Source of the DNA: Leucosporidium creatinivorum
Taxonomy: Eukaryota > Basidiomycota > Microbotryomycetes > Leucosporidiales > Leucosporidiaceae
Direction: 5' to 3'
DNA: 64,000 bases
Assembly (NCBI GenBank): GCA_001600635.1
Contig: BCKL01000041.1
Location: 3,637 to 67,636 of the forward strand
The translations under genes and the position numbers were made by a program. Positions within the stretch are counted from its first letter, which is position 1, and the number at the start of each line of letters is the position of its first letter. Positions 7,558 to 54,852 of this stretch are shown in pieces. Under the pieces are notes generated by a model, which worked only from the letters and a program-made list of their open reading frames with translations, searched no databases and was not told the origin of the DNA.

Positions 7558-9172
7558 ATGGCCGAAGCTACCTGCACCGCTCCTGTACGTTCTTAGCTCC
7601 ATCCGCTGCACGCCAAGCTCACTCTCTGCTCTCCTACAGGTCAACATCGCCGTCGTCAAGTAGTACGCTACCGCTCCCTTTCTTTCTCGTCGCGCCCAGC
7701 TAGAAGCTGACCGAGCTCTGATCCTGCGCAGCTGGGGCAAGCGCGACACTTCGCTCATCCTCCCCACCAACTCGTCGCTCTCGGTCACGCTCTCGCAGGA
7801 TCACCTCCGCTCCCTCACTTCTGCCAAAGTCGTCGAGCAGTCGCAGGGTTCGGACCGGCTCTGGTTGAATGGCGAGGAGGAGGAGATCAAGGCTGGTGGA
7901 AGGACTGAGAGGTGCTTGTCCGAGATGAGGAGCATCAGGAAGGCTATTGAGGTGAGTCGAAAGCGCGACGACGCGTTGTGCTGAAGAGGCGGAGCAAGGG
8001 CTGTAAGAGAGCCTGCGGGCGGAAGCATAAAGTCATCTCATGAGCTTCATGCAGCTTTACTGCTGTGTGTTAAGGCGGGAAGCTGCGCGTGCTTGGTCGG
8101 CGTGGTCTGGCCGCGCCGAGCAGCTCGAGCGCCAGCAGTGGGTGGTTTAACGCGACGATTCGCAGCCTTCACGACATGAACCAGGACCTGCATCGCTGAC
8201 CTTTCCTCTGCGCCCCCACAGGACAAGGACTCGTCCCTTGCCAAGCTCTCCGCCTCGCCCGTCCACATCGCTTCCGAGAACAACTTCCCCACCGCCGCTG
8301 GACTCGCCTCATCCGCTTCGGGTCTCTCGGCTCTCATCGCCACCCTCTCCACCCTTTACGACCTCCCCGCCCACGGCGTCTCCTCGTCGGACCTCTCTCG
8401 CATCGCTCGTCAAGGATCTGGATCCGCCTGCCGCTCCATGTTCGGCGGCTTCGTCAGTTGGGAGATGGGACAGAAGGAGGACGGATCCGACTCTGTAGCC
8501 TACCAGGTCGCCGAGAGGAGTCACTGGCCCGAGATGCAGGCGCTAATCCTCGTCGTCTCGGACCACAAGAAGGGCACCTCCTCCACCGCCGGCATGCAGC
8601 GCACCGTCGCTACCTCGGATCTCCTCCAGCACCGCATCAAGAACGTCGTCCCCGCGCGGATGGCCGCCATGGAGTCTGCCATCAAGGCTCGCGACTTTGA
8701 CTCGTTCGCTCGCCACACCATGGCCGACTCGAACCAGTTCCACGCCGTTTGCCTCGACACGGAACCTCCCATCTTCTACCTCAACGACGTTTCACGGTCG
8801 ATCATTGCCCTCGTCACCGAGTACAACCGCGTCGCCCTCGCCAACGATGGCCGACTCAAGGCCGCCTACACCTTCGACGCCGGACCTAACGCCGTCATCT
8901 ACGCTCAAAAGGAGGACGTCAAGCCCATCCTCGAACTCGCTCTCCGCTACTTCCCCCAGTCAGCCGCCCCCCCCTTCCCCGACCCCTTCGGCCTCCAACC
9001 CAATGCCGCCTCCCCTCTCCCCGCTGGCTTCAACGAGAAGGTCATTCCGGTCTTCCCTGAGGCGAGCGTCTCGAGGATCATCCACACCGAGGTCGGCGAT
9101 GGACCTCGCGTTCTCAGCAAGGAGGAGAGTCTGCTGGGCGAGGACAACCTGCCGAAGTCGGTCAAGGCGTAG
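7558..9172 (+). CDS. MVD1: Diphosphomevalonate decarboxylase
   Basis: Catalyses the ATP-dependent decarboxylation of mevalonate 5-diphosphate to isopentenyl diphosphate, the last step of the mevalonate route to ergosterol, carotenoids and other isoprenoids; cytosolic. Four exons were worked out: 7558-7584, 7640-7662, 7732-7951 and 8222-9172, giving 406 residues, close to the family norm. Motifs visible are the N-terminal VNIAVVKYWGKRD, the GHMP-kinase-type loop [14 protein letters not shown], and [11 protein letters not shown] followed by GGFV. The first coding exon is only nine codons (MAEATCTAP), a layout known for this gene in fungi. The gene converges on the RNase Z gene with 124 nt between stops. 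Confidence 0.97.
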
Positions 9173-13374: not shown

Positions 13375-15964
13375 CTACTCCTCCTCGTCATCCTGATCCA
13401 GGAAGTCCTTGTACACCTGGTTCTCGGTCTCCTCGACGAAGGGGTAGGCCAGCGACTGCAGCCACGCCTCGAACGCCTCGGTCTCGGCGGGAGGCACTTG
13501 GATGCCGGCGAGGATCTTGCCGACGTCTGTGTGTGATGAGGAGAGCGGGTTGATGTGAGGGAGGGAGGTGAGCAGAAGCGAGCCGAGGCGAAACAGAGTA
13601 GAGGAAGGTGGCGAGACAGGCGGAGGCGACCAACGAGGGCGGTGAGAAGGGAGGGAATAAGAAGAGCGTCAGCAACATTTCGATAGCAGAGAGAAGCGAG
13701 CGACGCACCTCCTCCGTGATTCCGGTAGTGGAAGAGAGAGATGTTGAACTCCATCGCCTCCAAGAACTTCCTCAACGCTCCCGGCCGCTCGGGGAACTCG
13801 AACCTAAACACTCGCTCGTTGACAACCTTACTCCTTCCACCAACGAGATACCTCGCGTGACTCTTGGCCATCTCGTTCTCGGACAAGTCGAGCGCCTTCA
13901 TGCCGCCGCTCTTGAGCTGCGTGAGGATCGAGCCGAGCTCCTCTTGCCGGGCTTGTTGAGGTGTGAGGAGAGGTGTGGAGGCGCCTGTTGGGGTAGCGAT
14001 GCCGGTGGCGGCGGGACGAGAAGAGGAAGAGGAGAGGTAGAAGGAGAGGTAGATGAAGGCGCGGGCGGAGGACGAGTAGCGGTAGACGAATTCGGTGACG
14101 GCGCGGGGGTGGATGATGGTGTGCAGTGCGAGGAAGCTTTTAGAGGAATTGGCGAGGAGAAGAGAGGGTCAGCTGTGGCTGGAGCTCGGCGCGACCAAGC
14201 TCGGCGGAACTCGACAGGCACAACAAGACTCACGCTCCAGGTTGCTCCGGAATGATGACCCTCAAGCTTGCCTCCTTGCCTTCTCCCAGCTCTGCCCTCT
14301 CAGCGATGAACCTCAGCCGCGAGAAGTTGATGTTGGCGCCCGAGACGACCGAGACGAAGCGCTTGTTGCGGCCAAGAAGGTTGTTCTGGTGAATATACTT
14401 CTTCATGCCGGCGACGGAGAGCGCTCCCGAGGGTTCGGGGACGGAGCGGGTGTCTGTTGCGCGAGAAAGAGGAAGACGGTCAGCGAGCGCGAGAGAGCCG
14501 AGGCGAGGCGTCGAACCTCACCTTCAAAGACATCCTTGATAGCAGCACACAGCTCGTCGTTAGATACGAGGATGATCTCGTCCACCAAGTTGGCGCACAC
14601 GCGCGCCGACTCCTCGCCCATCTGCCTGACGGCCGTTCCATCGGCGAACAATCCCACCTCGCTCAATGTCATCCTCTGTCCACACTTGAGCGTCTGCGCC
14701 AGGCAGTCGGCATCGTGCGTCTCGACTCCAATGACCTTGACGTGCGGTGGGGCGATGGCCTTGACGTAGGCGAGGATCCCGGCGAGCAATCCTCCTCCGC
14801 CAACGGGGACAAAGATGGCGTCAAGCTTGGAGGCGTCCGTCTGGCGCAGGATCTCGACACCAGCGGTACCTTGCCCGGCGATGACATAGGGGTCGTCGAA
14901 GGGAGGGATGATGGTGAGGCCGTGGGCCTTGGCTAACCGAGCGCACTCCTTCTTGGCTTCGTCAAAGTCGGCACCGTGCAGGACGACCTTGGCACCGAGG
15001 CGGTCGACGTTCATGTACTTGATCGAAGGGGTGTTGAGGGGCATGACGATGGTGCAGGCGACGCCGAGCTCGCGACCGGACATGGCGACTCCTTGGGCGT
15101 GGTTGCCTGTTGGTTAGGAGGGCGAATCGTTAGCGGGATGTATCGGAGAAAGATTCCCCCAAGTTGTGGGCGAGGTCTCGGAGGTGTGGAGAGGCTGCAA
15201 GAGTCTCTCTCATACTATCGCCGACCGCGGCCTGCGAAGGGAGGAGGCGAGCCGCAGAGGCTTCCCTGCCATCCGACATCGCTCAAGGGAGCACAGTAGT
15301 CTCCACACACTTGAAACACACCGTTCAGTCACGTCGCAGAGGGAGCAAGACTAACCGGCCGAGCAAGCGACGACTCCCCTCCATCGCTCCTCCTCCGAGA
15401 GCTGCTTCATCAGGTTGTAGGCGCCTCGAAGCTTGAACGAAAAGACTGGGGTAAGATCTTCACGCTTGAAGAGGACCTGAGCGCCCAACCGAGCCGAGAG
15501 CTGTTGTACCAGAAGAGCGATTAGCGGGACTGGAGCCGACGAGTCAAAGCGCAAAAGGGAGCGGTTCTCTGTAGTCGAGCAAAAGACGTACGCTGACAGC
15601 GGGGGTCAAGGGTGTTCCTGTAGGTGGTAGGATCGAGTATACGGCGGAAGTGAGGAGCATTGGGAGGTAATTCGGCGTGCCATCGGGCAGGAGTAGATGC
15701 GCTGGCAGCGGACGTCAGAGCGGTCAGTTTGGGATGTAACAAGCTACAGAGCGAGCACGTACGGGGCAGCCTCTTGTACAGCTCCTTGTTGGCTTCAAAA
15801 TGAGGCCGAGCGATCCTCGTCCCGTCCGGCAACAGAATCGAATCTTTGGAGTCGGAGGAGAGGGCCACCTGACGAGGTACAGGTTTGGGCGACAAGCCAG
15901 AGTCGACGGGGGGTACAGTCTGCTCCGTCTCGCTGAGTAGTCCAGACACGGAAGGCGACGACAT
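13375..15964 (-). CDS. ILV1: Threonine deaminase (threonine ammonia-lyase)
   Basis: A PLP enzyme converting L-threonine to 2-oxobutanoate, the first step of isoleucine synthesis, in the mitochondrial matrix. The PLP lysine lies in [11 protein letters not shown], just after [19 protein letters not shown] crosses an intron, and the phosphate-binding loop is [10 protein letters not shown]. The C-terminal half carries the regulatory ACT-like region typical of the isoleucine-inhibited biosynthetic enzyme: [19 protein letters not shown], then FHYRNHGG. The protein ends [10 protein letters not shown] with the stop at 13375-13377. The Met at 15964 ([10 protein letters not shown]) is used here. An in-frame Met at 16057 would add 31 Arg/Ser-rich residues that could serve as a presequence, but lies only 11 nt from the NSE3 ATG. 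About eight exons. Confidence 0.95.
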
Positions 15965-16068: not shown

Positions 16069-17687
16069 ATGCCGCCTAAAGCTTCCAGCTCTGTAGGTCG
16101 ATATACCTCTGCTCTGCCTATCGTCCCACACGCTCACTACGGCTCCATTGCAGCGCAAGAACAAGCAGCGCGTCGCCGACTCGGACGACGGCGACGAGGA
16201 GCAGCAGGGTACAGACTACGACTCGGACGCGCCTCCCGCTACCAAGAAGCAGAAGGGCAAGGTCAAAGCCAAAGCTTCTACCCAACAGCAGAAGAAGGGC
16301 AAGGGCAAGAAGAAGCAGCAGGACTCGAGCGACGAGGAAGAGGACAGCGACGACGATGCTGGGCCTACGCAGAAGAAGGGAGCACTTCGAGAAGAGGTGC
16401 GTGTTTCATACGCTACAGCTGAGCCTGTCGGCGAGCCAACTGATCCTCTACAACTCGAGCTAACGCGTATCTCATCCTCCCCTCGACGCGTCTGGTTCGG
16501 CTCGGGTTTCGCAGGAGCGCAAGGAGCTCGTCGCCGCCATGACTCGCCATATCCTCTTCACCGAGTATACTCGCAAGCTGCACCCTCGCAAAGCTCTCAC
16601 CGATGCTGGTCAGTCTGCCCCGAGGAGACGCGTCTCTCGTCTTCCCGCTGACCCATTTGGCTCTCGGGAACAGTGCTTACCGAGGCGCACACCAAGAAGC
16701 GGTTCAACGACATCATCCCTGGAGTGCAGAAGACCCTCCGCGAGCTGCTCGGCATGGAACTCGTCAAGATGCGCCCCAAGGAATCGTCGACCGCCAAGAG
16801 TGAGCATACGCTTTCGAACCGCCTTCTCGCTCTCGCTGACATCTAGAGACCTACAGACCCCGCCGCCGTCTACGTCCTTCGCTCGACCCTGCCGATCGAG
16901 CTGCAACGCGCCGCCAACTTCACCTCCCACTCGGACCTCACCTCGACGCCCGACGAGGACTTGTCCCGCTCGAGCAAGCTGGCTCGCGAATTGGCGAGGT
17001 GGGAGGAGGATTCCGAGGCTATACCTGGACTGCAAGAGGAAGGAGGAGCGCCGATGAGGGACGTCAAGCGCGAGGAAGGAGGAGCCTACGGTCTGCTCGG
17101 AGTTATCCTCGGTCTTATCCTCGTCAACGGCAAGGTGCTGGGAGATGGTGCGTTCGCTATGAGTCTTGCTGCTTTCTCACCGCTTACGCTCTTCGTCCAC
17201 AGACCAACTCATCACCTACCTTCGCCGTCTCTCCCTCACCCCCTCGACCATCCTCCCCCTCTCTCTCACCGCCGCCCATCCCGACACCCTCACTCTCGCC
17301 AAGTACATCGACCTCCTCGTCATACAAGGCTACATCGAACGTGGACCCTCCGCCGCCGCTCCCGCCGCCAAGGGAGGCCGACCAGCCGCTACTCAGCGTA
17401 CCCAGCGCGGCTCGGGCGACAACAGGGTCGAGGGAGGAGATCCGGCGATCGAGTACCACTGGGGAGCGCGTGCGGAGATTGAGATTGGCGAGATGGGGAT
17501 TGCGAGGTTCATGCAGCAGGTGTGGGAGTGGAAGGCGGGTGGAGGCGACGATGAGGACGAGGAGGGGGATGCGGCGGCGGCGGCGGCGAGGAAGGGCAAG
17601 ACGGGCGAGAAGTTCCTCTCCGAGATTGCTAGGGCGGCGGGAACGGCCGAGTTGGAGGATGCGGCCAAATTGAAGGTCACCCTGTAG
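16069..17687 (+). CDS. NSE3: MAGE-domain protein, SMC5/6 complex subunit NSE3
   Basis: Predicted subunit of the SMC5/6 complex, pairing with the Nse1 RING protein and Nse4 in DNA repair and chromosome stability. The first exon is eight codons (MPPKASSS), followed by a Lys/acidic-rich disordered tail (DSSDEEEDSDDD). The MAGE homology region begins with ELVAAMTRHILFTEY and RFNDIIPGVQKTLRELLGMELV. It continues with YGLLGVILGLILVNGK, LITYLRRLSLTP, LAKYIDLLVIQGYIER and YHWGARAEIEIG. This order of winged-helix blocks is the MAGE pattern, and most fungi have a single MAGE gene, Nse3. A Gly/Ala/acidic insert follows. Six or so exons; stop at 17687. It converges on the nuclease-like gene at 17782 with 94 nt between. 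Confidence 0.88.
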
Positions 17688-17781
17688 GCTTGGTGAGCAC
17701 TGTAATCGTTCCAAGTTCGTTCCGCTTCCTCCTCTCGCGCTCGGAGAGCTGTCGCTCTGCTCATGTTCTGCTTTGCCGAAG

Positions 17782-18814
17782 CTAACAAGACCTAGCTACT
17801 CTGGTGATTATCAACTCGAACCCAAGGCTTCTCGTCCTCTTCGCCGCTCCAGCTCGGCCGACCAGCTTCGCAGCCCCTCCCGCCTTCTTCAACGGGCCGC
17901 TCGTCTCCACCACCCGCTTCACCTTCGCCTCCGCCTTACTCATCACGGCCTGCGTTGCCGCCCTCGCCCTCTGCCATTCCGCCACCCCTCCCGTCACAGT
18001 CCGCTCTTTCACCATTTTAATCACAGTCGTCGGGAGGATGCAGCTCGGCGCTCCCGTCTTCCGATTGCCGTGAACGCAGGCGTGGTTATAGTCGCCTTTG
18101 GAGCCGGACTGAATGTAGGTGTTGATCCTGTTCCGACAGCTGTTGCGAGCGATGTTGGTGTCCCGAGGCTCGAGGATGATGTGGTGAGGAGAGAAGCATG
18201 AGGGGTTGTGGCAGAGATGGGAGGCTTGTAGGCGACGTGTGGAAGAGGGATAGGACGGCTTGACGAGTGTAGTATCGCGGCTTCGGGCGGCGAGAGCTTG
18301 GAGGCGAATTGGGACACTTGGGTCGTTGAGATTGCGCCAAGTCGAAGGCTTGCTCGACGCCGAGAGCAGGAGGTCCTGAATCTTGCGAGCCGTAAGACCC
18401 TCTAGAAATCCGGCTTGTCTCGTGAGGTCTTGCTGCTCTATGAGATGGCAGCCGATGTTGACCTTGGGTCGAACTCGCCTCCCCTTCTTCAGCCAACTGC
18501 GAAAGGATCGGGGTCGGGTCAGCTTTCGGCGCTTGAACCGGGAGTTCGAGGGGGCGAGCTTACTGTCCATCACGGAGACCGACCCAGTGTTTGATACTGG
18601 AGACTTCTCGGGTGCAGAACCTCTCCGAGAGGACGTTGATGATGCTGCTGTTGGGTAGCTTAAGCCGGCGGATTTGTCGGATCAAGTCACGCTCATCGGC
18701 TTCCTCCTCGGCATAGGGCGATACCAACCGACCAGCGTTGCGTGTACGAGTTGTCAAAGCGATGGAACTTGTCGAGCGAGGAGAGCAAGCTCGGGAAGGG
18801 TTCGAGCGAGCCAT
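17782..18814 (-). CDS. I-PpoI-like His-Me finger (zf-His_Me_endon) nuclease-like protein A
   Basis: Two coding exons, 18814-18564 and 18496-17782 (phase 2), give 321 residues. Residues 175-236 align with the rDNA-intron homing endonuclease I-PpoI. ASHLCHNPSC supplies the general-base His (H177, counterpart of I-PpoI H98), and N198 in RDTNIARNSC is the counterpart of metal ligand N119. C179, C184 and H189 match zinc site 1. C204, C224, H226 and C236 match zinc site 2. The catalytic residues therefore appear intact. Residues 40-83 form a charged helical leader shared with the divergent neighbour. The C-terminus is Lys/Arg/Ala-rich. Possible roles are nuclease, domesticated DNA-binding protein or selfish remnant; the sequence does not decide. 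A 5'-UTR intron ending near 18841 is likely. Confidence 0.8.
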
Positions 18815-19541
18815 GAGAGGGGGGAAGGGAGAGGGCAGGAGGCTGCAGGGAGAAGGAAGGAGCGAGATCGTCAGCAGATTGCTCTGGAATGGTTGATGTA
18901 GAGCTACAGGAGCACACCGCCGCGGAGACCCGAGCGAGGTCCAATGACTACTCACGGTCGTCGCCGAGCACGAGCAAGTCGAAGGATTCGGAGCTGGCGC
19001 AACGAGCAGCTCAGGGGAACAGAAAGGAGTAAGACGAGGAGGGAGAAGGAGGAGAGAGAGACTCGAGTGCTAGCAACCAGCTCAATGCCAACAATCAATA
19101 GCGAGCAGAAAGACAAGCCGAATCGAGACGGAGAACGGGCAAGAAAGGGGAAAGCGGTCGGCTTGCCCTTCTACAACGTCTCAGCTATATCTCTTTTCGC
19201 TTCTTTATGCTGCCACAAAGGAAGGCGTGGGAATCTAAGCGCTCAGTCCTGCTGTTGGCCTTCCGAATCCGACTTGCAATTCTTGCTCAATTCGGCGATG
19301 GCAGTCAGGTCCAATAAAAGTGTCTCCGCGCTCGTTCCCCTCTTTCTCCCGTTGTTGTACTGCTTGCTCTCTTGCTGCCTCTTCAGTTTCTCTCTCACTT
19401 CTCCTGCTGCTCAGCCGTCTGCACCAACCCTCAAGGTGAGTTTCGAGCCTTGCGCCGAGCGCCGAGACGGGCTCCCAGCATTCAGCAGCAAGGAGCGTCC
19501 GCTGACTTTCCCTCACTGCCCCTCTCGCAGAACCATCCAGC
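18815..19541. promoter_or_regulatory. Shared upstream region of the two His-Me finger genes
   Basis: 727 nt between two divergent starts. It contains a probable 5'-UTR intron of gene A (CTGCTGAC branch and CTGCAG acceptor near 18841-18870 on the minus strand). A similar intron is likely upstream of gene B, with a donor near 19436 and an acceptor near 19530 (CTCGCAG). I see no inverted repeats marking a mobile-element end. Confidence 0.45.
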
Positions 19542-20445
19542 ATGGCCAAAAACAAGCGCACCTTGCCCTCTCTCATCACCACCAAAAGACCCTCGACACA
19601 CGCCGCCACGAAGCGAGTCGACGAGCGCTCGGCCGACCTCTCAGCGCTGGTGGAGCTCTACATGCCGCCTGATGCACGTGTATTGAGCATGATGACCAGA
19701 AATTGGCTTGAGGCACGGCTTGAGAGTGCCGGACATTTCACTACAGAGCTAGAGTGAGCTCGTCTCGGTGATTGCTCGGCGTGGCCTCCTGCTAACTTCT
19801 GACAACCCCAGGTGCTGGCAGCGCTTCCCCGAGCCATTAGAGGGAGCCAGAGTATGTTTGGCTGCTCCGAAAGAGCCCCGTCGGCCTACCAAGAACCTCG
19901 GGAACCATCGCCTCCGCGCCGACGACCTTCTCCCACCCTTCAAAATCTTCGCCGGTTACCTCTGGAGGGACGTCCACGTCGCCTTGAACGCCTCGCCCAC
20001 CATAAACTCCCAGTTTATCACGCTCGATGCTACGAGCGCGGCCGCCAAAAGGTCGAAGTCGGGCAGCGTCTACCTCTACCAAATCGCCGCCTGGACCCAC
20101 ACCGAGCCCAAGGATCGTCTCGAGGCTCGCCGGAACGACTACCAGTGCTCCCACCTCTGCAACAACCCGCACTGCTTCAACCCGGACCACATCTTCCTCG
20201 AGTCGGCGCTGCACAACCAGTCGCGGGAGTCGTGCAGGAGCGCCGAGTTGACGGGAACCCCCGAGCAGGACGCTCATGGTTGCACTCATGGAGGGGTAGA
20301 TCGACCGTATTGTATCAGATTGAAGAGTATGTTCAGGCCGCTGTTGGAGCACAGAGGGCTAGAGGGGGAAGTGGGAAGCTCGGAGGATTCAGAGGTCAAG
20401 GAGGTGGAGCCGAAGGTGCTCAAGAGGAAGAAGACGTCCAGGTAG
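19542..20445 (+). CDS. I-PpoI-like His-Me finger (zf-His_Me_endon) nuclease-like protein B
   Basis: Two coding exons, 19542-19753 and 19812-20445, joined in phase 2, give 281 residues. The core is residues 182-238. QCSHLCNNPHC holds H185 (general base) with C187 and C192, H197 completes zinc site 1 in NPDHIFLES, and N206 in ALHNQSRESC is the expected metal ligand. C212, C228, H230 and C238 form zinc site 2. An aromatic beta-rich region (SGSVYLYQIAAWTH) precedes it, as in the family. The leader (residues 27-71, DERSADLSALVELYMPP ...) resembles that of protein A. The C-terminus is acidic and then basic (KVLKRKKTSR), a plausible nuclear signal. Both paralogues keep all metal ligands but differ widely elsewhere, so the duplication is old. 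Confidence 0.85.
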
Positions 20446-20724
20446 ATTAGTAGCGCATTCCAATATCTCGTATCATCTCTCAGCTGAGCAGCGAAGCGAG
20501 AGCAAGGGCTTCGAAAAGCTCGGCGAACTTGACCCTCGACGAACGCCGAACTTCTTTTGTCACGCAACTTGAAGCTGCACCGAGTACTCTGAGTAGCTTG
20601 TCTGGACCAGATATGCGCCCCAAACGAGCTACTGCACCTTACTACGGAGAGGGGTCTTGGACTTCAGTGAGCTCATGCCGCCCTCAGCTCTCTCGCTCCT
20701 TCTTCACCACTTCAACAGCCCGAA

Positions 20725-22466
20725 ATGCTGCTCGTACCGCTCGCGCTCAGCGCGTTACTTCCTCTGACGCTAGCAGCAGCCCCTCCCGCGCAACTGCGAC
20801 TGTACCCTTCCCCAGAGACCCACTCTACTTCGCCCATCTCGCTCAGCGCGCCACAAGCCAACGCCGTCCTCGCGCACCACCTGGGCGTAGCACAGTACGA
20901 GAAGCTGCCTCTCACCAACAGCGACAGGCGCTGGGAGGAGGCGCTCGGCAGCTCGGGCGGCTGGGAGCAGGGCCAGAAGGTCGTCGTGTTGCTCGAGTGT
21001 GGGAAGGAGGGGTGCGATGGTGCGTAACTTGACAGGGAGCTTGCGCGCTAGGCTAGAAAACTATCGCTGATCGGCTACAACTGTACAGATTTTATCCCCG
21101 AGACGTTCGCCGCTTCGCAAGCATACGAGCTGCCTTCGCTGCCCGTGCACTCGTGGACTGCCGCCATCACCCTTCACCTGCATCGTCTCGCTACGTCGCT
21201 TGGCTTGGATCCCAACTCGCGCGTCGTCGTCGGCCTTGACTCGTTCGTCCAGGGCTTGAAGAGCCTCGACGGCTGGAGCGGATGGGTCGGCGAGGAGCTG
21301 GGGGCGCGCATCGGCTGGGACAAGATCAAGGTGCGTGCGCTGCACCTCGCAGACGACGAGCAGAAGCTGACTGCATTGCTTCACTCTACAGGAGACCGTC
21401 AAGGCCGCTGTCGAGCCCGTGCGCCAGAACCTCGGTCTTCTCACCGACGTCGACTTCCTCGATGAGGTGCGTCCTGCGCGAATCTTTAGCAGGTCCGAGC
21501 TGACGAGCCGGCTTGCTTCTGCAGTCCGCCAACACTCTGGTTACCGAGATGGAGTCTCTCGTCACCCTCGTCGACACCTACGCCGCTTCGAGCCATTCGG
21601 ATGACGGACCTCAAGGGGAGACGCCTCAGATTGTCGCCGTGCACATCAAGGGCATGAAGGTGAGCTGCCGGGTTAGCAGTGACTATGTATGCATCTTATT
21701 GACCTTCCCCGACCTAAACAGGCCATCTGCGACGCTCACTCGCGCACTTCGGAGACCTACCAGCGCGCCGCCTCGCTCCTCCGCCAGACTCTTACCGCCA
21801 CGCTCGCCTCCCTCAGCTCCGAACAAGAGTCGGAGCAGCCCACTTTCGTCCTCCTCACCCTCCCTCCCTACTCCCCTCCCTTCTTCCGCAAGCGCGCCGC
21901 CTGGCTCTCTCCCTTCTCCTCGGGCCTCAACCGCTACCCTACGACTCAGCGCACTCGCTCGGTCGCTGCCCCTGCCGGCCACGCCAAGCGCGATACCATC
22001 TTCTCTCCCTCGGCCGACGCGGGAAGGAAGGCCCGTCGCGCGGCGTCGACCCCTCAACCCATCGTTCCCTCGAGCAAGACCTGCTTCGAGTCCGAGGCGC
22101 AATTGAAGAATTTGACGGCCAACTGCCTGGATCGGGGAGTCGGAGTCAAGGGATTGAGCACGAGGAAGGGAGATTGCTGGGTCTGCTCGTGCGGCAAGAC
22201 GACCGAGGGAGGAAAGACGAAGAGCTGGGCTGGCGAGGGTTGCGAGAAGGAGGATCTGAGCGGGTGAGTTCGATGTCTTCTCTCGAAGATTCTTTCGCTA
22301 ATGCTGTCTCTCCAACAGCGACTTCGTCCTCCTCTTCTTCTCCGCCCTCGGCCTTCTCGTCGTCCTCTTCGTTTCGGTCCTCCTGCTCTACAACGTCGGA
22401 ACCACCGAGCTTCCCGGTACCCTCTCCTCCGTCAGCGGTGCCGGAGCTGGAAGTAAGAGGGATTGA
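20725..22466 (+). CDS. Vps3844-like (DUF3844) endomembrane protein
   Basis: A type I membrane protein of the secretory pathway, with function poorly known in the family. The start at 20725 opens a signal peptide (MLLVPLALSALLPLTLAAA). A large luminal region follows over six exons. The C-terminal domain is the Cys-rich DUF3844 pattern: TCFESEAQLKNLTANC, then GDCWVCSCGKT, then TKSWAGEGCEKEDLS. It leads directly into one transmembrane helix (FVLLFFSALGLLVVLFVSVL) and a short tail ending GAGAGSKRD, stop at 22464-22466. The order of Cys motif, K-x-W-x-G-x-x-C-x-K-x-D-x-S, then helix is the basis for the call. Neighbours give no functional clue. Confidence 0.85.
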
Positions 22467-27222: not shown

Positions 27223-29793
27223 TCACAACAAGGCATCCAACACTGCGAGGGCCTCCTTTGCACTCGGCCGATCTGCCTCCCTCGGCCTTGTCATGGCCTG
27301 AAGCAACGAACGAATCTCGAGAGGAACTACATCCTCGCCGTTGAGGAAGTACTGGTGAGGCGTCCCATTCGAATAGATCGCGTTGGCGTAGATGGTGAAG
27401 TCCTCCTCGTCGGCCGTATGTTCATCATCGTCGTCCTCGTCGGAGAGGGCAGCTGTTTCGTCGTCGAGGGGAGGCGATGGAGGAGGAAGGAGAAGGAACG
27501 GAACGGTAGAGGCATGATGGGCGAAAGAGGCAGCGGAGGAAGGTGTCCCCGGGCTTGTCGACGGCGCCTCCTCGAGCTCAGCGGACTCGTCGGCGAGCAG
27601 GCGGTTGGCGCTGACCGCCAACGTCCAGCTCGAGCGTCCTCTCCCGCTCGCCACACTCCTATCACTCTCCACACTCCCGCTCCTCCTCCCTTGCCTGCTG
27701 CCTCCCAGCACGCTCAATCCCGCCGCGCTCCCCGTCCTGCTCGCTCCACTCCCAGCCCTACTCCTCCCACTCCTGACGCTCCCCTGCCTACTCAGACTAG
27801 CGCTCTCGAACCCTCCTTCCCTCCTCCTCTCTTCCCACTCCCAATACCCTCCTCGGCTCGCCCACAGCGTTCGCTCGACAGTCCGCATGCCTTCGTAGGG
27901 CTCGTGACCGGTGATGAGGACCGAGAGGGTGACGCCGAGGGAAAAGATGTCGGAGGGTCGACCAAAGGGAGAAGGTGGAGGGCGAAAGAACTCGGGGGGA
28001 GAGTAGGGAGCTGTGCCGAGGCCGAGAGGGTCGGATGGCGGTGGGAGCAACGAGGAGGGAGAGGGGAGGAAGGACGACATCCCAAAGTCGGAGAGACGTA
28101 GAGTGAGATCCGATGCGACCTGTAGAGTAGCGAAAAGGTCAGCCGACGAGCTCTTCGAGCGAGGCCAAAACGAGAAATTCACAAGGACATTCTGAGGCTT
28201 GATGTCGGCGTGCAAGACGCCGCGCTCGTGCGCCCAAGCTACAGCAGAAACGAGCTGCCTAGCCCATTCGAGCCATCGTCGCTTGCCTATCCGCTCGGGA
28301 TACATTTTGGCGAAGCTGAGCGTGTGGCCGAATGGGCAGTACTCGAGGAGGAGGATCAGGCGAGGCGAGTCGGCGGGGATGGAAGGAGTGGCTCTTATGG
28401 ATGTGACGGGGAGAGCTGCCGATGAGAGGTTGCTCGGGTTGCTCGTTGTGGAGAGACGATGGCCCTCGACTGCGAGAAAGTCGGGGCGAGGAGGAGCGGG
28501 GCAGGGGTCCGAGTGCCGAGGTCCCTTCTTGCGCGAGGACTGCTGTAGCTCAACAAGCTGTTGAGGCTGAGGATGCGGTGCAGGGGCCTGGTCCAGATCG
28601 CCGAGTGGGAACGAGGCAAAGAACTCGCCGCCGCTCTCGATGGAGGGTGAGCCGATGAGAGGGGAGAGGTCGCTGGGAGTGAACGAGTGCTGACGACGAA
28701 GGGAGCGGCGGTGGGGGATCTTGGCGGCTGCTGAGGTGGCGGCCATGTCGGAGACCGCGCGCAAGTCGGTCGAGGAGGCCCAATTGGTAGGGCGGCCGAA
28801 TCCTCCCGCTGCGCTCGCATCCTCCCAAGCCTTCTTCCTCCTACTAGCATGATCCTCCTCTCCGACCATCTCTACTCCATCTTGCTCATCCTTGACTCCG
28901 TAGAGACCCAGGATGAATCGGCTGCCCCGGTCGGCGAGCGAGCCGGGAGGGAACGGCGGCATCTGCGCTGCAAGCTTGGAGAGGATGAAAGCCTCGCCAA
29001 GCCCAGCGAGCTGCGACTCGCGATCCGCAAAGATTCGTTTGGCGGCGCAGAGGGTCCATGTCGGTGGGAGAGAGGAGGAAGGTCGAGGGAGGAAGGAGGC
29101 GAGGTAGACGTTGGCGTGGCGGCCTTCGCCGAGTAAGTACTCTCGGGCGGGGACGAGGCGAAGTCGAGGAGATTGTCGAAGGTCGAGGACGGGGTTGTCG
29201 CTGATGCCGGGGCCGTGAGTCGAGGCTGCTGCTCCTCCGCTGCGAGCTTCTACTCGGCCGTTCTGTCCGTGGAAGAACTCTGGCGAGGTAGGCGTGTGCG
29301 GTAGCTCCTCCCTGGTAGCTTTGGCTGGCAGTGCGATGCCACCCAGCCCCGGCGGTGGGCCGTTGGCTGAGAGGTGGGCTGAGAGGTGCTTTGAGGTTGA
29401 GGATGCGAGTTTCGGCGATGGTGGAGTGAAGGCAAGATGGTCGTTGTCGAGTGATGTCCGCCTAGCTTGTTGTAACTCCCTCTCACGCTCCTGTGCCCTC
29501 CAGCTCGGTCGTGGTGCAGGGATGTCGAGCGGCGTTGAGGGAGTGGGCGGAGTTGAGCTTCGGCTGGGGACGTTGGGGGTGACGGGCGACCAGTCAAAGG
29601 AGAAGAGCGAGTTTCGGGAGGTCTTCTTGGGCTCCGGCGTGCGAGGTGTAGGTGAAGGAGTGGACGAGGTGGCCAGACCGAGAGCGGCTTGTTCTGAGGG
29701 CAGGAGGAGCGTCGGCGAAACGGGCGGTAGCTCGAGTTGAGGTGCTGCTGATGGTGATGTAGATATCGGCGGTGGTGGTGGTGCTCGTAGCAT
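27223..29793 (-). CDS. Serine/threonine protein kinase with long N-terminal tail
   Basis: A protein kinase of about 835 residues; group not identified. The first 200 or so residues are Pro/Ser/Thr-rich and disordered. Kinase motifs in order: glycine loop LGEGRHANVYLASF, catalytic lysine in CAAKRIF, catalytic loop LHADIKPQNVL (HAD replaces HRD, Asp kept), DFG in LSDFGMS, and TAPYSPPEFF (P-P-E for A-P-E). IFSLGVTLSVLITGHEPYEG and RPREADRPSAKEAL end the C-lobe. Long inserts (Ser-rich near 28400-28800 and 27550-27750) interrupt both lobes. One 63-nt intron (28120-28182, GTGAAT donor, GCTGACC branch, CTACAG acceptor) lies between the catalytic loop and DFG; it has no stop and keeps frame. An acceptor-like CGCTACAG just before the ATG suggests a 5'-UTR intron. 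Confidence 0.85.
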   Translation of the reverse strand: MLRAPPPPPISTSPSAAPQLELPPVSPTLLLPSEQAALGLATSSTPSPTPRTPEPKKTSRNSLFSFDWSPVTPNVPSRSSTPPTPSTPLDIPAPRPSWRAQERERELQQARRTSLDNDHLAFTPPSPKLASSTSKHLSAHLSANGPPPGLGGIALPAKATREELPHTPTSPEFFHGQNGRVEARSGGAAASTHGPGISDNPVLDLRQSPRLRLVPAREYLLGEGRHANVYLASFLPRPSSSLPPTWTLCAAKRIFADRESQLAGLGEAFILSKLAAQMPPFPPGSLADRGSRFILGLYGVKDEQDGVEMVGEEDHASRRKKAWEDASAAGGFGRPTNWASSTDLRAVSDMAATSAAAKIPHRRSLRRQHSFTPSDLSPLIGSPSIESGGEFFASFPLGDLDQAPAPHPQPQQLVELQQSSRKKGPRHSDPCPAPPRPDFLAVEGHRLSTTSNPSNLSSAALPVTSIRATPSIPADSPRLILLLEYCPFGHTLSFAKMYPERIGKRRWLEWARQLVSAVAWAHERGVLHADIKPQNVLVNFSFWPRSKSSSADLFATLQVASDLTLRLSDFGMSSFLPSPSSLLPPPSDPLGLGTAPYSPPEFFRPPPSPFGRPSDIFSLGVTLSVLITGHEPYEGMRTVERTLWASRGGYWEWEERRREGGFESASLSRQGSVRSGRSRAGSGASRTGSAAGLSVLGGSRQGRRSGSVESDRSVASGRGRSSWTLAVSANRLLADESAELEEAPSTSPGTPSSAASFAHHASTVPFLLLPPPSPPLDDETAALSDEDDDDEHTADEEDFTIYANAIYSNGTPHQYFLNGEDVVPLEIRSLLQAMTRPREADRPSAKEALAVLDALL

Positions 29794-30467
29794 GGAGGTA
29801 GGACCTGTAGCGAGAATGAGAGCGAGGAGCGAAGCGAGTCAGTGCTTCCGGTTAGCGACGACGTTACGTCAAGTGGGTTTGAGGAGCTGCACGAGCAGGA
29901 TAGGAGAGCTGTAGTACTGAGCTACAGCTGGAGTTCCCTGCTCAGCTCTGAAAGCCCCCTCATCCGCTGCCTCGCCGACCCACGGGAGCGGCTCGTCTCG
30001 CCTCGTTCGATCGACTCACCGGCAGGCTGACCTACACGCTAGACCTTGGGTCAGAGAAGCCGCTCTTGAATGCAAGCAACCTCGAAGTCGCTCCTGCTGC
30101 TGCTGCTGATCCTTAGCGGCTTGTTAGCGGTCGACTGCTGCAGCGGGGATTGGCGATGGCAACCTGGACGAGCTCGACGGCCGTGCTTGTGTAGGTCGGT
30201 AGCCTCTAAAGGCCGAGGGACGAGTCCCCGTGAGGCGGCGAGGTACGAGCACCTGAAGAGGAGAAGATGGGAGGAAGGAGAAGAGCGACTTGGGCTTCGA
30301 GCCGGCTTCTGCTTCGCAAAGGCCTACAGGAGTATCTCGAATTCGGGCGTGCTTCCTGAATAGAGAGCACCAGTGTTGAACTGCACTCTTAAAAATGATA
30401 CTAAGCTACTAATGATCCATTGAAACCCATCTCCTTTCCCATCTCGGCCGAGCCGCTTGACACCATC
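29794..30467. other. Intergenic region upstream of the kinase gene
   Basis: 674 nt holding the kinase promoter and probable 5'-UTR exon (acceptor next to 29793), plus the 3' region of the permease gene (stop 30468). No other feature is supported. Confidence 0.5.
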
Positions 30468-44349: not shown

Positions 44350-45885
44350 ATGCCGCTGCTGTCTAAGGTGAGTCTCTCGCTGCTTCTTTCCTCCGCTGCT
44401 CGCTCGCTCAACCCTGCATCTGTCCGCGCCCACAGCATCGAGACAGCAACGTACCGCTACCAGCTAAGGCAGCGCCTTCGAAACGGCGATGGAGTGAATC
44501 ATACTCGCCTCCACCGCGCATCTCTCCCGCCTTCTACCTCGGCCTCCTTTCCGTCCTCCTCTCCCTCGTCGCCGTCACGCTCTCCCTACGTCCCGACCTC
44601 TACAGCAGCACCTTCCACACCCTCCTCACTACCACACATCCTCATTCACATTCGACCAACTCGCCAGCCCTCACCCCCGCCCGAAGAGCCGCTCTCCATC
44701 TCTCACACCTCATCGTCGGCCCTCGGTCGCTCCCTCCTCAGTACCACAACAGAAACTGCTCGTCCACCGCCCTCCTCCAGGCTCTCAAATCAACTCGCAT
44801 TCGACCTGACGGCGCCTCTCGCAAAGTCAATACCACTCTCCCACCGACTCAGCTCTCCCTCGGCGATGAGTTCGACTTCTCGTTCGAGCTCGACGGCTGC
44901 CCTCCTTTGCACCTTTATACTGCAGCCGAGGCGTGCGATCTGCTACAGGGCTTTGGTGGACTCTTTCTGAGGGGAGACAGCTTTGTGCGGCACGTCGTTA
45001 ACGCGCTGTTCATCGTCTTGAGGGAGAGGAATGACGGGGCAGTGGAGAGCGAGGGGGAGAGGTGCAGAGGAAACGCCATGTTTGACGATAGGCGCGCTAC
45101 TTCTGCTCATGTCTCTTGGGAATCCGCTGACCCCATCCTAACCTACAGGAAAGCGCACTGCCGCGAAAACTCCATTATCGACTCGCAAGCCCTCTCCGAG
45201 CCCATCTGCGGAGGCGACGCCTTTCTCTACTTCGACATGGGCGCCTGGGGCGCTCAGCCACAGCACCTTTCTCTCGCCATCTATGAGCAGTGGCTCAACA
45301 TACGCCCGCCGCAGAAGAAGATGCTCTCGCCGGTCTTCGTCGAGGGATTCGGTCTTCACAATCGATTAGACGCTTCGACTGCTGTCCTCGGTGCGTCCAT
45401 GGTGCACTCGCGTACCCCTTCTTCTGTAACTCTGGCTAACCTCTCGCCCTTCACAGGCTTCATTCGCCCCGTCCTCGCCCTTTCGTCTCGCCTATTCCCC
45501 CGTCCTCTCTCCCTCTGGATGGGCATCCACGCCCCCGCGCCAGGCAAGCCCGCCGAGTGGGCAGAAGCGCAGAACGCCGAACATGTGCTGCACTACAACG
45601 GCGTTGTTGCCGAAGCTCTTGAGGTCCTTGCCCCCGGGGAGGAGGTCGGAGATCGGATGATGAGTGAGATTAGCTGGTTCGGAGCGACTGATGGAGCGGA
45701 GAGCTATGATGGTGAGTGACGCTCTCTTCAGACGGTTTTACTGCCCCAAGCTGACCACCTCGCACCTCGCAGGATCGCACTACTCGCTGCAGGTCAATCT
45801 CGAAAAGGCCATCTTCCTCCTCAACCTCCTCGATGTGGCTTGGGGCGAAGCGAAGGATGCAGGAGGGCTATTGAAGACGTACTAG
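44350..45885 (+). CDS. Membrane-anchored SGNH/PC-esterase-like protein
   Basis: A type II membrane protein with an SGNH-hydrolase-like luminal domain; in fungi and plants such folds often act as O-acetyl-transferases or esterases of cell-wall or capsule sugars. A short first exon (MPLLSK at 44350; in-frame Mets also at 44329, 44239 and 44179) joins HRDSNVPLPAKAAPSKRR. One transmembrane helix follows (AFYLGLLSVLLSLVAVTLSL). The catalytic-type motif GDS with trailing R-H is in LFLRGDSFVRHVVNALFIVL. The C-terminal D-x-x-H is in SYDGSHYSLQVN, formed across an intron. Between them, FLYFDMGAWGAQPQH and FVEGFGLHNRLDAST are conserved-looking. Stop at 45885. Substrate unknown. The exact start is uncertain. 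Confidence 0.7.
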
Positions 45886-46202: not shown

Positions 46203-48224
46203 TCACCTCCAATCCAACTCGGCTCCCTCGCCCGATCCTGCAGAGTCGTCCCTCTGCACTTCGGCGCCGACCGAACGAGCAGCCTGTCCAAACTCTTTCT
46301 CCTCTCCCTCGGCATCATCCCACTCCAGCATTGGTCCATGTTCGGTCTCGACGCAGTGGATGTGAGGCAGATCGTTGACGGTGACGGAGCGGAAGTCGAC
46401 GGTGGGGTGAACCTATTCGGCGCGGAGGGGAAGTCAGCCGAGCACCAGAGGTCAGCAGGGGAGCGAGACTGAAAGTCAGCATGAACGAGCTGCGACCCAC
46501 GATCATGTGGCGTTTGAGGTTGGAGAAGACGGAGAAGGCACGTTGGCAGGACGAGATGGGGCAGGTGAAGGCTGCACAATGAGAGTACAAGGTCAGCTGG
46601 CGCTCGCCGAAGGGGCTGAGGGATCGCGAGGGAGGGCAAAGCTCACGCTGAATACCATTGTGAGACCGGATATGGGTCTCCCTCGCAGAAGGACGACCGA
46701 CTGTAGGAGGGGGAAGGTGGAGAGGAAAGTCAGCTCGGCGCTCGACTCGAATTGCTGGCGGGATTCACAAATCCTATCACATCCCTCGAAGGGGCAGGTG
46801 TAGACCCTCTTTGCTATATCCTTGGGAGGCCAGCCCCTCTTGGCAATGACTTTCGTCGGCAATCCCGTGATAGGCGAGATTGGGCGACCCGACTTGGCGT
46901 CAATCTCCTTCGGCAACGAGCCTCGCTTGCGACGCTGCACCGGTTTCGAGTTGGCGCTGGGAATCGAACGACTGTTGGCGAGGGAAGAGGTAGAGACACG
47001 GGGAACGAGGTCTGGCGAGTAGCGGTCGTCCTCATCGTCTTCGAGGGAGGGAAGGGGGAGGGGAGGGAGCTCGAGCGGCGAGATGGGCGATTGAGGAGAC
47101 ATCGACATGGGGTGATTGTAGTCCACGAGAGCGGGCGGGTTGGTGACGGAGGTAGAGGTGGGAGAGTGATGCAGCTCGAGCATGGGTGCGAGCAGCGAGC
47201 CTTGCCCGCCGATCGAGCTCGACGTCCAGGCGCGAGGGCGGTTCTGCGGCCTACTCGAGCGGAAAGTGGAGCTGAATTGGTGCTGTTGCTGTTGACCGGG
47301 ACGAGCCTCGTAGAGCACTTGAGCGGCGGCCGTGGTGGTAGGCGAGAACTCGGCGAAGGAGGAGAAGGAAGGGTACGAGCGAGCCTCGGGCGCCGAAAAC
47401 GAAAGCGCTTGAGTCGAGTACTGAGGCGTAAAAGGGGTGTGCTGCTGGATGTACTGGTTGGTGCTAGGGAGTGAGGAAGGGCCGTATCTGGAGGAAGGCT
47501 GAGGAGGAGTGCCATAGGTCGAGGGAAGGGCGGGAAGGGGAGGGAGCTCGGCCGAGGGTTCGTAAGGCGAAGGGTAAGGGTTGTTGAACCTCTGGCGAGT
47601 CGAGTAGGTGTCGTAGGTTTGTCCAGAAGGGTGCTCCGAGGTACTCGGCGCCCATTGCTGCTCTCCTTCATCCACCTCGGCGATGTCCCAGCCTTCCCCC
47701 TGCTCCTCCTCGCCATACTCGCCCCATTCTTGACCTTCATCCTCCTCTTTGACCATGCTATCATCCTCCCATCTCTCAAACACGTGAGATTCCGTATCCC
47801 CGTCGCCGACTGCACCGCCCCCACCTTGACCGTCGGCCTCCCAATCCCTTGTCCTCGACTGGTGCGGAGCAGCGACGGAGGAAGATACAGAAGTGTAGTA
47901 GCTGTTGTAGTCGACTGGAGTACGAGGAGCAACGTCGCCACCGAGCATCAGAGAGGCGAGAGGGTGTGCAGGCTGCTGGTTCTGTTGCTGTGCGCGGGGA
48001 AAGCTGTAGCCTTCGTGCTGCTGCCTGGGCGCCGTGTAGGTGTCTCCGGGCCCGCTCCACGACTGCGAATGACCATGCGTGGCAATGCCTGGTCGGGGCT
48101 GCTCCAGCAGAGCCGAGTGGCGAGCGAACGAGGAGGACGAAGGAGGAAGATAAGGAGCGGAGGAGGGCGATTCGGCGAAGGGGTCGTCGAGCGAGTGTCG
48201 ACGACTGTGAGTGTCCAACGACAT
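46203..48224 (-). CDS. C2H2 zinc-finger transcription factor
   Basis: A nuclear DNA-binding regulator with about 490 disordered residues (Ser/Pro/Gln/Tyr-rich, with an acidic patch EDEGQEWGEYGEEEQGE) before two C2H2 fingers near the C-terminus. Splicing at 46778 (donor GTGAAT) turns the first finger into YTCPFEGCDRIFGRPS followed by ETHIRSH (C-x4-C-x12-H-x3-H). The second finger is FTCPISSCQRAFSVFSNLKR, continuing into H-M-I and, across the next intron, V-H. Just before the fingers is a basic stretch (VQRRKRGSLPKE). An acidic C-terminus ends near GAELDWR with the stop at 46203-46205. The start is at 48224 (MSLDTHSRRHSLDDPF). Paired fingers at the C-terminus resemble stress-type regulators such as Msn2/Com2; orthology is not shown. 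Confidence 0.85.
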
Positions 48225-48690
48225 GCTCGCGCTACTTGGTGTGTGTGGTAGAAAGTCAAGCTGTAGCTCAGCTCTGACTCGGCGAGAAAGGCGCAATCAC
48301 GGGACGCACAGCTGGCTGCCTTCGCAAGCCGAGCACGCCGAGTTCTGCTACGTTAGCCCTCGGAGCAGGCGTCCTGGCTCAGGTTTACTTTCGTACATTC
48401 GCTAGCCTTTCTAATTTGCACCTTGATTCTAATGGTGTACAGCGGTCTCCGGCAAAGAGAGTTTGACCCCGCCTCGGCGCTGACCCCCTCCGAACGGTGG
48501 ACTCCTTTCTCGCCAATTCGACAAGAGAAGTGCAGCTCGACATCGAGTGAGTTGCAGTGGTATATAACGAGATGGTGTACGAGTGCAAGGGCGTATATGA
48601 GGTCTAGATGACCCTCCGAACCGGGGAAAGGAGAATGCGAAGTTCGAGGGCCGAGGATAGCGAATGGAGATGCTGGAGTGTAGCAAAGCC
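48225..48690. other. Intergenic region upstream of the zinc-finger gene
   Basis: 466 nt between the transcription-factor start (48224) and the aspartic-protease stop (48691), both minus strand. No further feature is supported. Confidence 0.55.
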
Positions 48691-51429: not shown

Positions 51430-54400
51430 ATGGACTCGGACTCTGACAGCGATTTCGACATCACCTCGGCGCTGCTGCCGCCCAGCAAGGCCCAGTCGAG
51501 CAAAGGGAAAGCTTCTGCTACCAGCACCACTGCCGACAAGTCCGTCTTCGGCGCGCCCGCAGAACTTTCCGACAATGAGGAGGACGCTCTTTTCGCCTCG
51601 CTCGCTTCGCTGCAGCGCTCCAAGAATCTCGCCGAGGGTACCGCCGTCGTCAAGGGTCGCAAGGACCTCAAGTCCAACAAGGGCTTGACGGGCGGCGGCT
51701 CGTTCCAAGCTCTCGGACTTCCTGCCGCCCTCCTCAAGGCGCTGCTCCAGCGTGGATTCACCAACCCTACGCCGATCCAACGTCTCGCTCTACCCTCCAT
51801 CCTCGGCTCTTCGGAGACGGTCATCGCCGGCAAGAAGATGGTAGTCGCTCGCGACCATCTGTGCATGGCCAGGACAGGATCGGGAAAGACCCTCTGCTAC
51901 CTCCTCCCCCTCCTCGCCCAGCTCATGACCCATTCGACCGCCTTCGGAGCTCGTGGTCTCATCCTCGTACCTACTCGCGAGCTCGCGCTCCAAGTCCTCA
52001 AGGTCGGCAAGGACCTCGCCAGGAGTTTGAAGTCCGACGGAGAGGTCCTGCGATGGGCCATGGTCGTCGGAGGAGAGGGCATGGAGGAGCAGTTCAACAT
52101 GATGGCAGGCAACCCCGACGTGTGAGTTGTTCTGTCAGCTCTGCAGGCTATCACCGCTGAACCTCTGAGACTCCTCAGCATCATCGCCACGCCCGGACGT
52201 CTCCTCCATCTCATCGTCGAGATGAACCTCGACCTTCGCGCCATCCAATACTGCGTGTTCGACGAGGCTGATCGCCTCTTCGAGCTCGGATTCGAGCAAC
52301 AACTCCACGAGATCCTCCACCGCATGCCCCCGACCCGCCAGACCCTCCTCTTCTCGGCCACCCTCCCCTCCTCCCTCGTCGGCTTCGCCAAGGCCGGTCT
52401 CCAGAGCCCCAAGCTCATCCGTCTTGACGTCGACCAGAAGATCTCGAAAGATCTGCAGATGGCCTACCTCTCGGTCAAGGGCAGCGAGAAGGAGGCGCTC
52501 CTACTCGGTGTCCTGCGCGAGGTCATCGGCGTCCCCCTCATGACGGACGCCCAGCGTGCCGTCAAGGACGAGTACATTGAGGATGAGGAGGACGATGAGG
52601 AGCGCGGGCGTTCGGCCTACAAGGGCAAGGGCAAGGGCAAGGCGGGAGGCAAGAAGCGCAAGCGCAGCGCCGACGACGACCTCAACGCTGAGCACACTAT
52701 CGACCCCGAGGCTCACCAGACACTCGTCTTCGTCTCGACCAAGCATCACGTCGAGTACATCACCGCCCTGCTGCAGCAGTCGGGATACGCCGTCTCGCCC
52801 ATCTACGGATCCATGGACCAAACCGCTCGTCGCCTCTCGCTCGCCCGCTTCCGCGCCGGCCGCACCTCCATCCTCGTCGTTACCGATCTCGCCGCCCGTG
52901 GAATCGACGTTCCCGGAGTCGAGAACGTCATCAACTACGATTTCCCCAACGGCACGAGGGCGTTCGTTCACCGAGTTGGACGTACCGCTCGTGCGGGTCG
53001 CAAGGGATGGGCCTACACCTTCGTCACCGCCTCGGAACTCCCCCATCTCCTCGACCTCGAACTCTTCCTCTCCCGTCCCGTCAAGACGTGCCCCATCACC
53101 CTCGGAGAAGGAGAGGACGAATCCTCCATCGACTTCGCCAACCAGCTCGTCCTCGGCACTGGACCTCGTTCGCTCATGGACCTCGACCTCGAGACCTTCC
53201 GCGCGATGATGTCGCATCACGAGAATATCGACGCACTCGGGCAGGTCTCCCGTCGTGGACAGAAGATGTACGAGCGAGGATTGTCCAAGGCTTCGGCAGA
53301 GTCGTATCGCCGCGCCAAGGAGCTCGAGAGGAAGGCCAACGGACTCGCTTCCACCTCGGGAGAGAACCGAGGGACTCATCCCATCTTCTCGGCCTACCTC
53401 GCCATCGGCGGAACCAGCGTCGAGAAGGAGCAGAGTCGCGCCGACATGATGGCCATCGTCAACTCGTTTACGCCGGCCGAGACGGTGTTTGAGGTGGGCG
53501 CGAGGGGCAGGACGTCGGCGAGTCAGCTGATGAAGGAGAGGAGGAAGGCCATGGTCAAGAGTCATATGGCGCGCGCGTTGGTCGAGGAGGAGGAGGAGGC
53601 CGAGGATGCGATGCCCGAGGTGCCGGACGATGAGGAGGAGAGGCAGGAGCAGGCGGCCCTCAAGAGGCCAAAGGTGGATGTTGATGATGCTGATGCTGAA
53701 GAGTTGGAGGTGAGTGTTTTTCGCCTTCCTGAGTCGAAGCCGAGCTGATCTTTCCTTCGCCCGTTTCATTCGCACAGGCCGTCTTCGGTGCTCCTCGCAA
53801 GCGCAAAAAGGTGGCAGGCAAAGCCGCTAGTTACCGCGATCCCAACTTCTACCTCTCCTACGAGCAAGAAGGCGCCGACACCGAGCGAGGGTGAGTTTCT
53901 CGGTCTCGCCTTCTCGTCCTTCTCTACTCCTTCCGCAGCACTTCCCTCCTCCATCGCGGCGTGTATCTCTTGGCACATGCTGACCGCCCTACTGTCACAG
54001 ATACGCCCTCACTAATGGAGACTCGTTCGTCGCCCAAGCCGCCCAAGCTACCTACGACGTTACCGGCCGAGGCGACACCGAAGGAACCGCCCCCGACCAC
54101 CTCCTCCAACGCGCCTCTGCCCTCCGCTGGGATCGCCGTACCAAGAAGTTCATCAAGGGCGACGGAGTCGGCGCAGATAACAAAAAGATGGTCCGCTCCG
54201 AATCGGGACAGAAGCTTCCGGCGTCGTTCAAGTCGGGCGTGTTCGACGAATGGAGGAAGAACAACCGCATCTCGGTCCCGAAGGTTGGCGAGGCCGAGTT
54301 GAAGGGCAAGACCATTGGCGGATTGAGCGGCGGCGAGAAGAAGTACCGACACAAGGCGGGCGTACCCAAGGCCGAGCGGAGCGCCACCGACAAGCAGAAG

Positions 54401-54716
54401 GGTCGCACAGTGGGCAAGCCTGGTCGTTTGGGTGGAGCTGCCGGCGGGCTTAAGACTGCCGACGAGATCAGGAAAGACCGTTCCGACAAGGCCAAGCGAG
54501 GTGAGCCCTTTCTCGGCCGCTTCTTTCGCAGCTTCAGAGCTGATTCCCGCTCTTTCTCACCTTTTTCACCGTCATGCTCACTTTCTCATCATTCACACTA
54601 TATCTACTGCCTCCTCATCAGTCCGCCGGTCGACTCAGCCTTCCAAGAAGAACCCGAATGGCAAGGGAGGCAAGCCCCAAGGCGGCGGCGGCAAGCCTCA
54701 GGGTGGTCGCAAGTAG
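51430..54716 (+). CDS. DBP10: DEAD-box ATP-dependent RNA helicase, 60S ribosome biogenesis
   Basis: A nucleolar RNA helicase needed for large-subunit rRNA maturation. After an acidic N-terminus (MDSDSDSDFD) come the Q-motif (NPTPIQRLALPSIL), ARTGSGKT, PTRELALQV, TPGR, DEAD in VFDEADRLFELGF, and SAT. The second domain has TLVFVSTKHHVEYI, VVTDLAARGIDVPGVENVIN and HRVGRTARAGR. The C-terminal DBP10 domain is present (FYLSYEQEGAD, RWDRRTKKFI, GEAELKGKTIGG), followed by a Lys/Gly-rich tail ending GGGGKPQGGRK. Introns lie near 52123-52179 and 53709-53779, at about 53891-54000, and at 54501-54621. The segment from the penultimate exon tail onward has a second copy at 6799-7192. Confidence 0.96.
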
Positions 54717-54852
54717 GGATGGTAGGCAGTGTGCTTCACTGCAATCCTTGCTGTTTGTCGATACAGCTGTGGGCGAGGCTTCGAGAGATGAGGGAGGAAA
54801 GCTGCTTGAGCTCGGCGACTGTTCGGCGAAGGCGGCGGCTCGGCGAAGGCTG
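54459..54852 (+). repeat. Source copy of the duplicated DBP10 3' segment
   Basis: This part of DBP10 (last 42 nt of the penultimate exon, 121-nt intron, last exon, about 136 nt of 3' flank) is repeated at 6799-7192 in the same orientation. The helicase gene is whole here, so this is the parental copy. Confidence 0.9.

Follow-up and report, generated by a model that had tools for sequence, protein, structure and literature searches.

Two free-standing genes of the I-PpoI family, arranged head to head between NSE3-like and Vps3844-like genes in Leucosporidium creatinivorum

I-PpoI, the enzyme of an rDNA group I intron of Physarum polycephalum (PDB 1a73, 1evw), gives its name to a family in which nuclear homing endonucleases are found, these being His-Cys enzymes (PMC3679873). 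The locus described here raises the question of what two genes of this kind are doing in a fungal genome outside any recognisable intron of that type, flanked by ordinary protein genes. The stretch analysed, referred to as the window, comprises 64,000 nucleotides of the Leucosporidium creatinivorum assembly (27.7 Mb in 63 contigs), with a G+C content of about 60% within the window. The two genes, A and B, are each modelled with one intron in the coding sequence (CDS), and their parts are the following.

18814-17782, minus strand: gene A, two-exon model, 321 amino acids
18843-18955, minus strand: putative 5'UTR intron of gene A (GTGAGT...CTGCAG), placed by eye
18564-18814, minus strand: exon 1 of gene A, N-terminal region, no Pfam match
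18497-18563, minus strand: CDS intron of gene A, phase 2 (GTAAGC...TCGCAG), modelled from the sequence
17782-18496, minus strand: exon 2 of gene A, carrying the PF05551 core
18815-19541, no strand: interval of 727 bp between the start codons of A and B, the pair lying head to head
19542-20445, plus strand: gene B, two-exon model, 281 amino acids
19436-19530, plus strand: putative 5'UTR intron of gene B (GTGAGT...CTCGCAG), placed by eye
19542-19753, plus strand: exon 1 of gene B, N-terminal region, no Pfam match
19754-19811, plus strand: CDS intron of gene B, phase 2 (GTGAGC...CCCCAG), modelled from the sequence
19812-20445, plus strand: exon 2 of gene B, with PF05551 at residues 130-240 and a basic KRKK at residues 275-278

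Both splice models derive from the sequence, and alternative in-frame splice choices are possible in each gene. A preliminary description of this DNA had presented the pair as spliced genes at these coordinates, arranged head to head between NSE3 and a Vps3844-like gene and away from any host intron or rDNA, and the present analysis agrees with it on each of these points. The upstream neighbour carries a MAGE domain (Pfam, 6.7e-24) and represents a MAGE/NSE3 gene, the stop codon of which lies 94 bp from that of gene A, while the downstream neighbour contains a Vps3844_C domain (Pfam, 2e-11). The exon 1 pieces of A and B have no Pfam match at E <= 5, and the NCBIfam search returned no match. 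Elsewhere in the window, Pfam identifies ordinary genes for a mevalonate diphosphate decarboxylase (8180-9169, plus strand), a PLP-dependent enzyme (PALP; 14403-15113, minus strand), a protein kinase (27226-29838, minus strand) and a DEAD-box helicase with a DBP10CT domain (52126-54913, plus strand). In addition, three long open frames have no Pfam match, at 56188-58065 (plus strand, 626 aa), 46596-48296 (minus strand, 567 aa) and 44367-45716 (plus strand, 450 aa).

Both proteins belong to the I-PpoI / His-Cys box family, as had been proposed from the letters of the sequence. The profile of the I-PpoI-type His-Cys box domain, PF05551, matches A at 56.1 bits (5.7e-15) and B at 63.0 bits (4.3e-17), against a curated family cut-off of 27 bits. 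The match begins at profile position 8 in B and spans positions 60-127 only in A. Similarly, the best matches in a PDB sequence search are I-PpoI entries (0.0012 for A and 0.01 for B), and a profile built from the exon 2 sequences of both genes finds I-PpoI among PDB sequences at 5.5e-6. These PDB matches are limited to a motif of 32-35 residues, the stretch SHLC...N...C, with the phmmer alignment covering I-PpoI residues 92-126 only; the non-I-PpoI chains among the matches listed have E-values of 0.59 or worse. AlphaFold2 models, computed from two-sequence alignments, reached mean pLDDT values of 31.8 and 31.0, with values below 50 throughout both.

The residues that would support catalysis were compared by aligning A and B to I-PpoI in three MAFFT modes, using an I-PpoI sequence and a zinc-ligand numbering that we take to be the accepted ones. 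In all three alignments the general base H98 of I-PpoI falls opposite H177 of A and H185 of B, and the metal ligand N119 opposite N198 and N206, so that the residue numbers given in the preliminary description are correct. Likewise, C100, C105, H110, C125, C132, H134 and C138 are opposite identical residues of A and B in 3/3 alignments. By this alignment to I-PpoI, the zinc sets of A are assigned as C179/C184/H189 and C204/C224/H226/C236, and those of B as C187/C192/H197 and C212/C228/H230/C238. Nine catalytic and zinc positions are thus identical across A, B and I-PpoI. Two further I-PpoI residues, S97 and E114, which are named as conserved in the group (PMC9587614), also lie on identical residues of A and B in the three alignments. 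The group has zinc ligands in two sites, eight His/Cys residues in number (PMC9587614), seven of which align in both proteins. The eighth, C41 of I-PpoI, is opposite C86 of B in two of the alignments and a Ser in the third, and it never meets a Cys in A. R61 of I-PpoI lies in a region that aligns differently in each mode, where A/B read T/Q, T/Q and L/V, never Arg. The earlier statement that both proteins keep every catalytic and zinc residue is therefore true for the alignable core, with its nine positions, but not beyond it, as R61 is without an Arg counterpart and C41 is matched by B alone, in two of the three alignments.

The two copies are strongly diverged, as the preliminary description had it, with an identity of about 30% overall. 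Identity amounts to 29/60 in the core (A residues 173-238), 24/82 in the linker preceding it and 8/40 at the C-terminus. Within the core, A and B agree at 9/9 functional positions versus 20/51 of the other aligned positions (Fisher p = 7e-4, a value that is indicative only because the alignment is partly anchored on the functional residues themselves). The observed alignment score was reached by 0/1000 shuffles for the core, 13/1000 for the linker, 27/1000 for exon 1 and 524/1000 for the C-terminus. Homology of A and B is certain in the core and marginal in the linker and exon 1, and the C-termini are unrelated. A chance motif is ruled out by the PF05551 E-values together with the core alignment, which stands 17.8 s.d. 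above its shuffles.

The CDS introns of both genes are in phase 2, at codon 84 in A and codon 71 in B, and in the alignment they lie one to two codons apart, directly before an aligned Trp. An alignment of the 32 residues upstream scores -43 if both introns are placed at one and the same codon, and 17 if they are offset by two codons. The shared phase and nearly shared position suggest that the pair probably arose when an ancestral gene, already spliced, was duplicated locally in inverted orientation. A single ancestral intron is proposed with moderate confidence, as the two positions are not precisely the same. Upstream of the core, A has a gap of 10 columns where B reads YLYQIAAWTH. This gap, together with a Pfam match that begins only at position 60, raises the possibility that DNA binding by A is changed or gone, and A may represent a partner or an altered enzyme. 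Of the two, B, with its fuller region upstream of the core, would be more likely to cut at a specific sequence.

A six-frame PF05551 search of the 27.7-Mb assembly, which works exon by exon and yields counts that are lower bounds, found at least two matches, both at this locus. A tblastn search of the assembly with B recovered A plus one weak match at C1:1528415 (E 0.24, 14 bits), which was taken as noise. The 2.9-kb DNA of the pair matches only itself in the assembly and is therefore single copy, and no repeat within 17400-20900 exceeds 24 nt. The confinement of the PF05551 matches to this locus, the tblastn result and the single-copy DNA together rule out that the pair belongs to a repeat family.

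With regard to an intron or rDNA setting, no Rfam family reaches its gathering score in the window, which rules out rDNA or a group I intron within it; the flanks are protein genes, and neither A nor B is enclosed by a recognisable group I intron or by rDNA. At the level of the whole assembly, no group I intron was detected at E <= 1 among the 27 of 80 first-look candidates that were scored, by a search that was positive in 7/14 control genomes. The 15-mer of I-PpoI has no match in the assembly. Short conserved 18S and 25S rDNA patterns gave 0 matches there as well, which suggests that the rDNA was probably left out of the assembly; the absence of an rDNA-intron relative thus covers the assembled contigs.

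Somewhat better than even, in our view, is the account in which the pair consists of paralogous, free-standing nucleases of the I-PpoI family that would be kept by the host, that is, domesticated, and would cut DNA as dimers. The retained biochemical role that the preliminary description read from the intact active sites is, on this account, a hypothesis. It has been proposed that His98 of I-PpoI deprotonates the attacking water, and the H98A change sharply lowers activity; the metal bound by a conserved asparagine is located on the side of the leaving group (PMC11325842). The presence of both the base histidine and the metal asparagine makes the same chemistry the simplest reading of A and B, which probably have DNA-nuclease activity. 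Under this model each protein would fold as a zinc-stabilised beta-beta-alpha-metal nuclease, in which H177 of A or H185 of B would activate a water and N198 or N206 would hold one divalent metal ion. As homo- or heterodimers the proteins would then make double-strand cuts in DNA, with the diverged upstream region determining the target site. The KRKK near the C-terminal end of B is compatible with nuclear import.

A first alternative is that A and B are free-standing selfish homing endonuclease genes, for which the NSE3-Vps3844 interval is or was the target and which spread by cutting empty alleles. Nuclear homing endonucleases are the best-known members of the family (PMC3679873), the alignable active site is intact in both copies, and the position is compactly intergenic, with the short distance between the NSE3 and A stop codons. 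The CDS introns are also compatible with a selfish history, given that the rDNA-intron enzyme I-DirI requires spliceosomal intron removal, according to a reference title in PMC3679873. Nevertheless, two diverged copies that share a same-phase, similarly placed intron speak for long residence, and the assembly search gave no further copy beyond these two. A host-kept nuclease is favoured over a still-homing gene, which we regard as doubtful.

It is unlikely that A and B have lost the ability to cut DNA and serve, with their zinc fold retained, in DNA binding or in a structural role, or that the genes are in decay. The missing counterparts of R61 and, in A, of C41 would fit such a loss, as would the gap upstream of the core in A and its lower codon adaptation, but the general base and the metal asparagine are retained in both copies, the frames are open under the splice models, and codon use exceeds the random level in both. 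Codon adaptation is 0.558 in A, versus 0.457 +/- 0.019 with random synonymous codons (5.4 s.d.), and 0.599 in B, versus 0.466 +/- 0.018 (7.3 s.d.). The value of A is below all 8 listed of 9 reference ORFs (0.598-0.794), and that of B is at their low end, the reference ORFs being the training set itself.

A more specific version of the host-kept nuclease reading would have A and B form a co-regulated pair of tamed nucleases acting as a heterodimer, in which B would supply the fuller DNA-binding region and A a second active site of a host DNA-cutting machine. Such a machine, which we consider improbable in this exact form, may for example attack foreign DNA or make programmed DNA breaks, and may do so in the nucleus or, given the acid-free basic N-termini, in mitochondria.

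That A and B are relics of a transposon accessory nuclease is very improbable: an I-PpoI-like nuclease does accompany a DDD/E transposase in KolobokP (PMC9587614), but the repeats around the pair are short, its DNA is single copy, no transposase match came from the 13 proteins or protein pieces scanned nearby in the window, and KolobokP is reported from 7 animal phyla (PMC9587614).

Comparison with known systems places the pair within a family that has already been seen outside introns. As set out above, the likeness to I-PpoI consists of the His, the Asn and the 7 zinc ligands that align identically. The differences are that A and B lie outside any recognisable group I intron or rDNA, are longer, with an N-terminal extension, and form two paralogues. 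Free-standing fungal PF05551 proteins are probably present in sequence databases. The KolobokP His-Me finger nuclease, described in a paper that is cited by PMC10989895, resembles A and B in being I-PpoI-type and in residing in the nuclear genome outside introns, but it belongs to a transposon that is present in many copies and carries a DDD/E transposase as well as long terminal direct repeats with TIRs (PMC9587614); none of these features is seen at the A/B locus. The same domain, PF05551, occurs in ORFs of Naegleria (PMC12482156); these are carried by extrachromosomal rDNA plasmids, whereas A and B are on a 144-kb contig among ordinary protein genes. One homing gene that landed in a fungal nuclear genome has been described; it is of the GIY-YIG type, and its active site is mutated (PMC7593156). 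Of such enzymes, PMC4469406 mentions only mitochondrial ones, of the LAGLIDADG and GIY-YIG types.

The preliminary description had also suggested that no role for such genes has been described. This holds insofar as the literature searched, which leaves most subscription journals outside, contained, among the matches listed, no work on the function of free-standing I-PpoI-like genes in fungi, but I-PpoI-type nucleases outside introns are known from KolobokP, PF05551 ORFs are known from the Naegleria plasmids, and A and B add a further pair to an established family. That homing enzymes can become host genes is familiar from the LAGLIDADG type, with yeast HO as the classic example. If A and B are kept by the host, the His-Cys box family would be another source, besides the LAGLIDADG one, from which a selfish nuclease has been turned to cellular use. 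If they are still homing, they would represent a free-standing nuclear His-Cys homing gene, of which there was none among the literature matches listed. The conservation of the residues makes the host-gene idea directly testable.

Relatives were sought in other genomes as well. Three scans of viral contigs gave 64, 7 and 30 stretches that fit a pattern, and a scan of prokaryote genomes gave 42; in neither case was a relative confirmed. Among 50,697 phage records searched by tblastn with B, 42 matched at E <= 1, the best listed having an E-value of 0.6 and 26.7% identity. Weak likeness over the catalytic motif is found to phage HNH models (phrog_1872 at 2.8e-5 for B, phrog_6254 at 0.0022 for A) and to the PADLOC HEase model (2.3e-5 for A, 5.8e-4 for B). 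HNH_3 (PF13392) differs, B being below its cut-off (12.2 vs 24.8 bits).

As regards the N-termini, both are basic and acid-free, residue 36 of A and residue 27 of B being the first acidic ones, and viewed by eye they may represent mitochondrial presequences. In A, the acid-free N-terminal stretch is followed by a possible helix-turn-helix, likewise recognised by eye.
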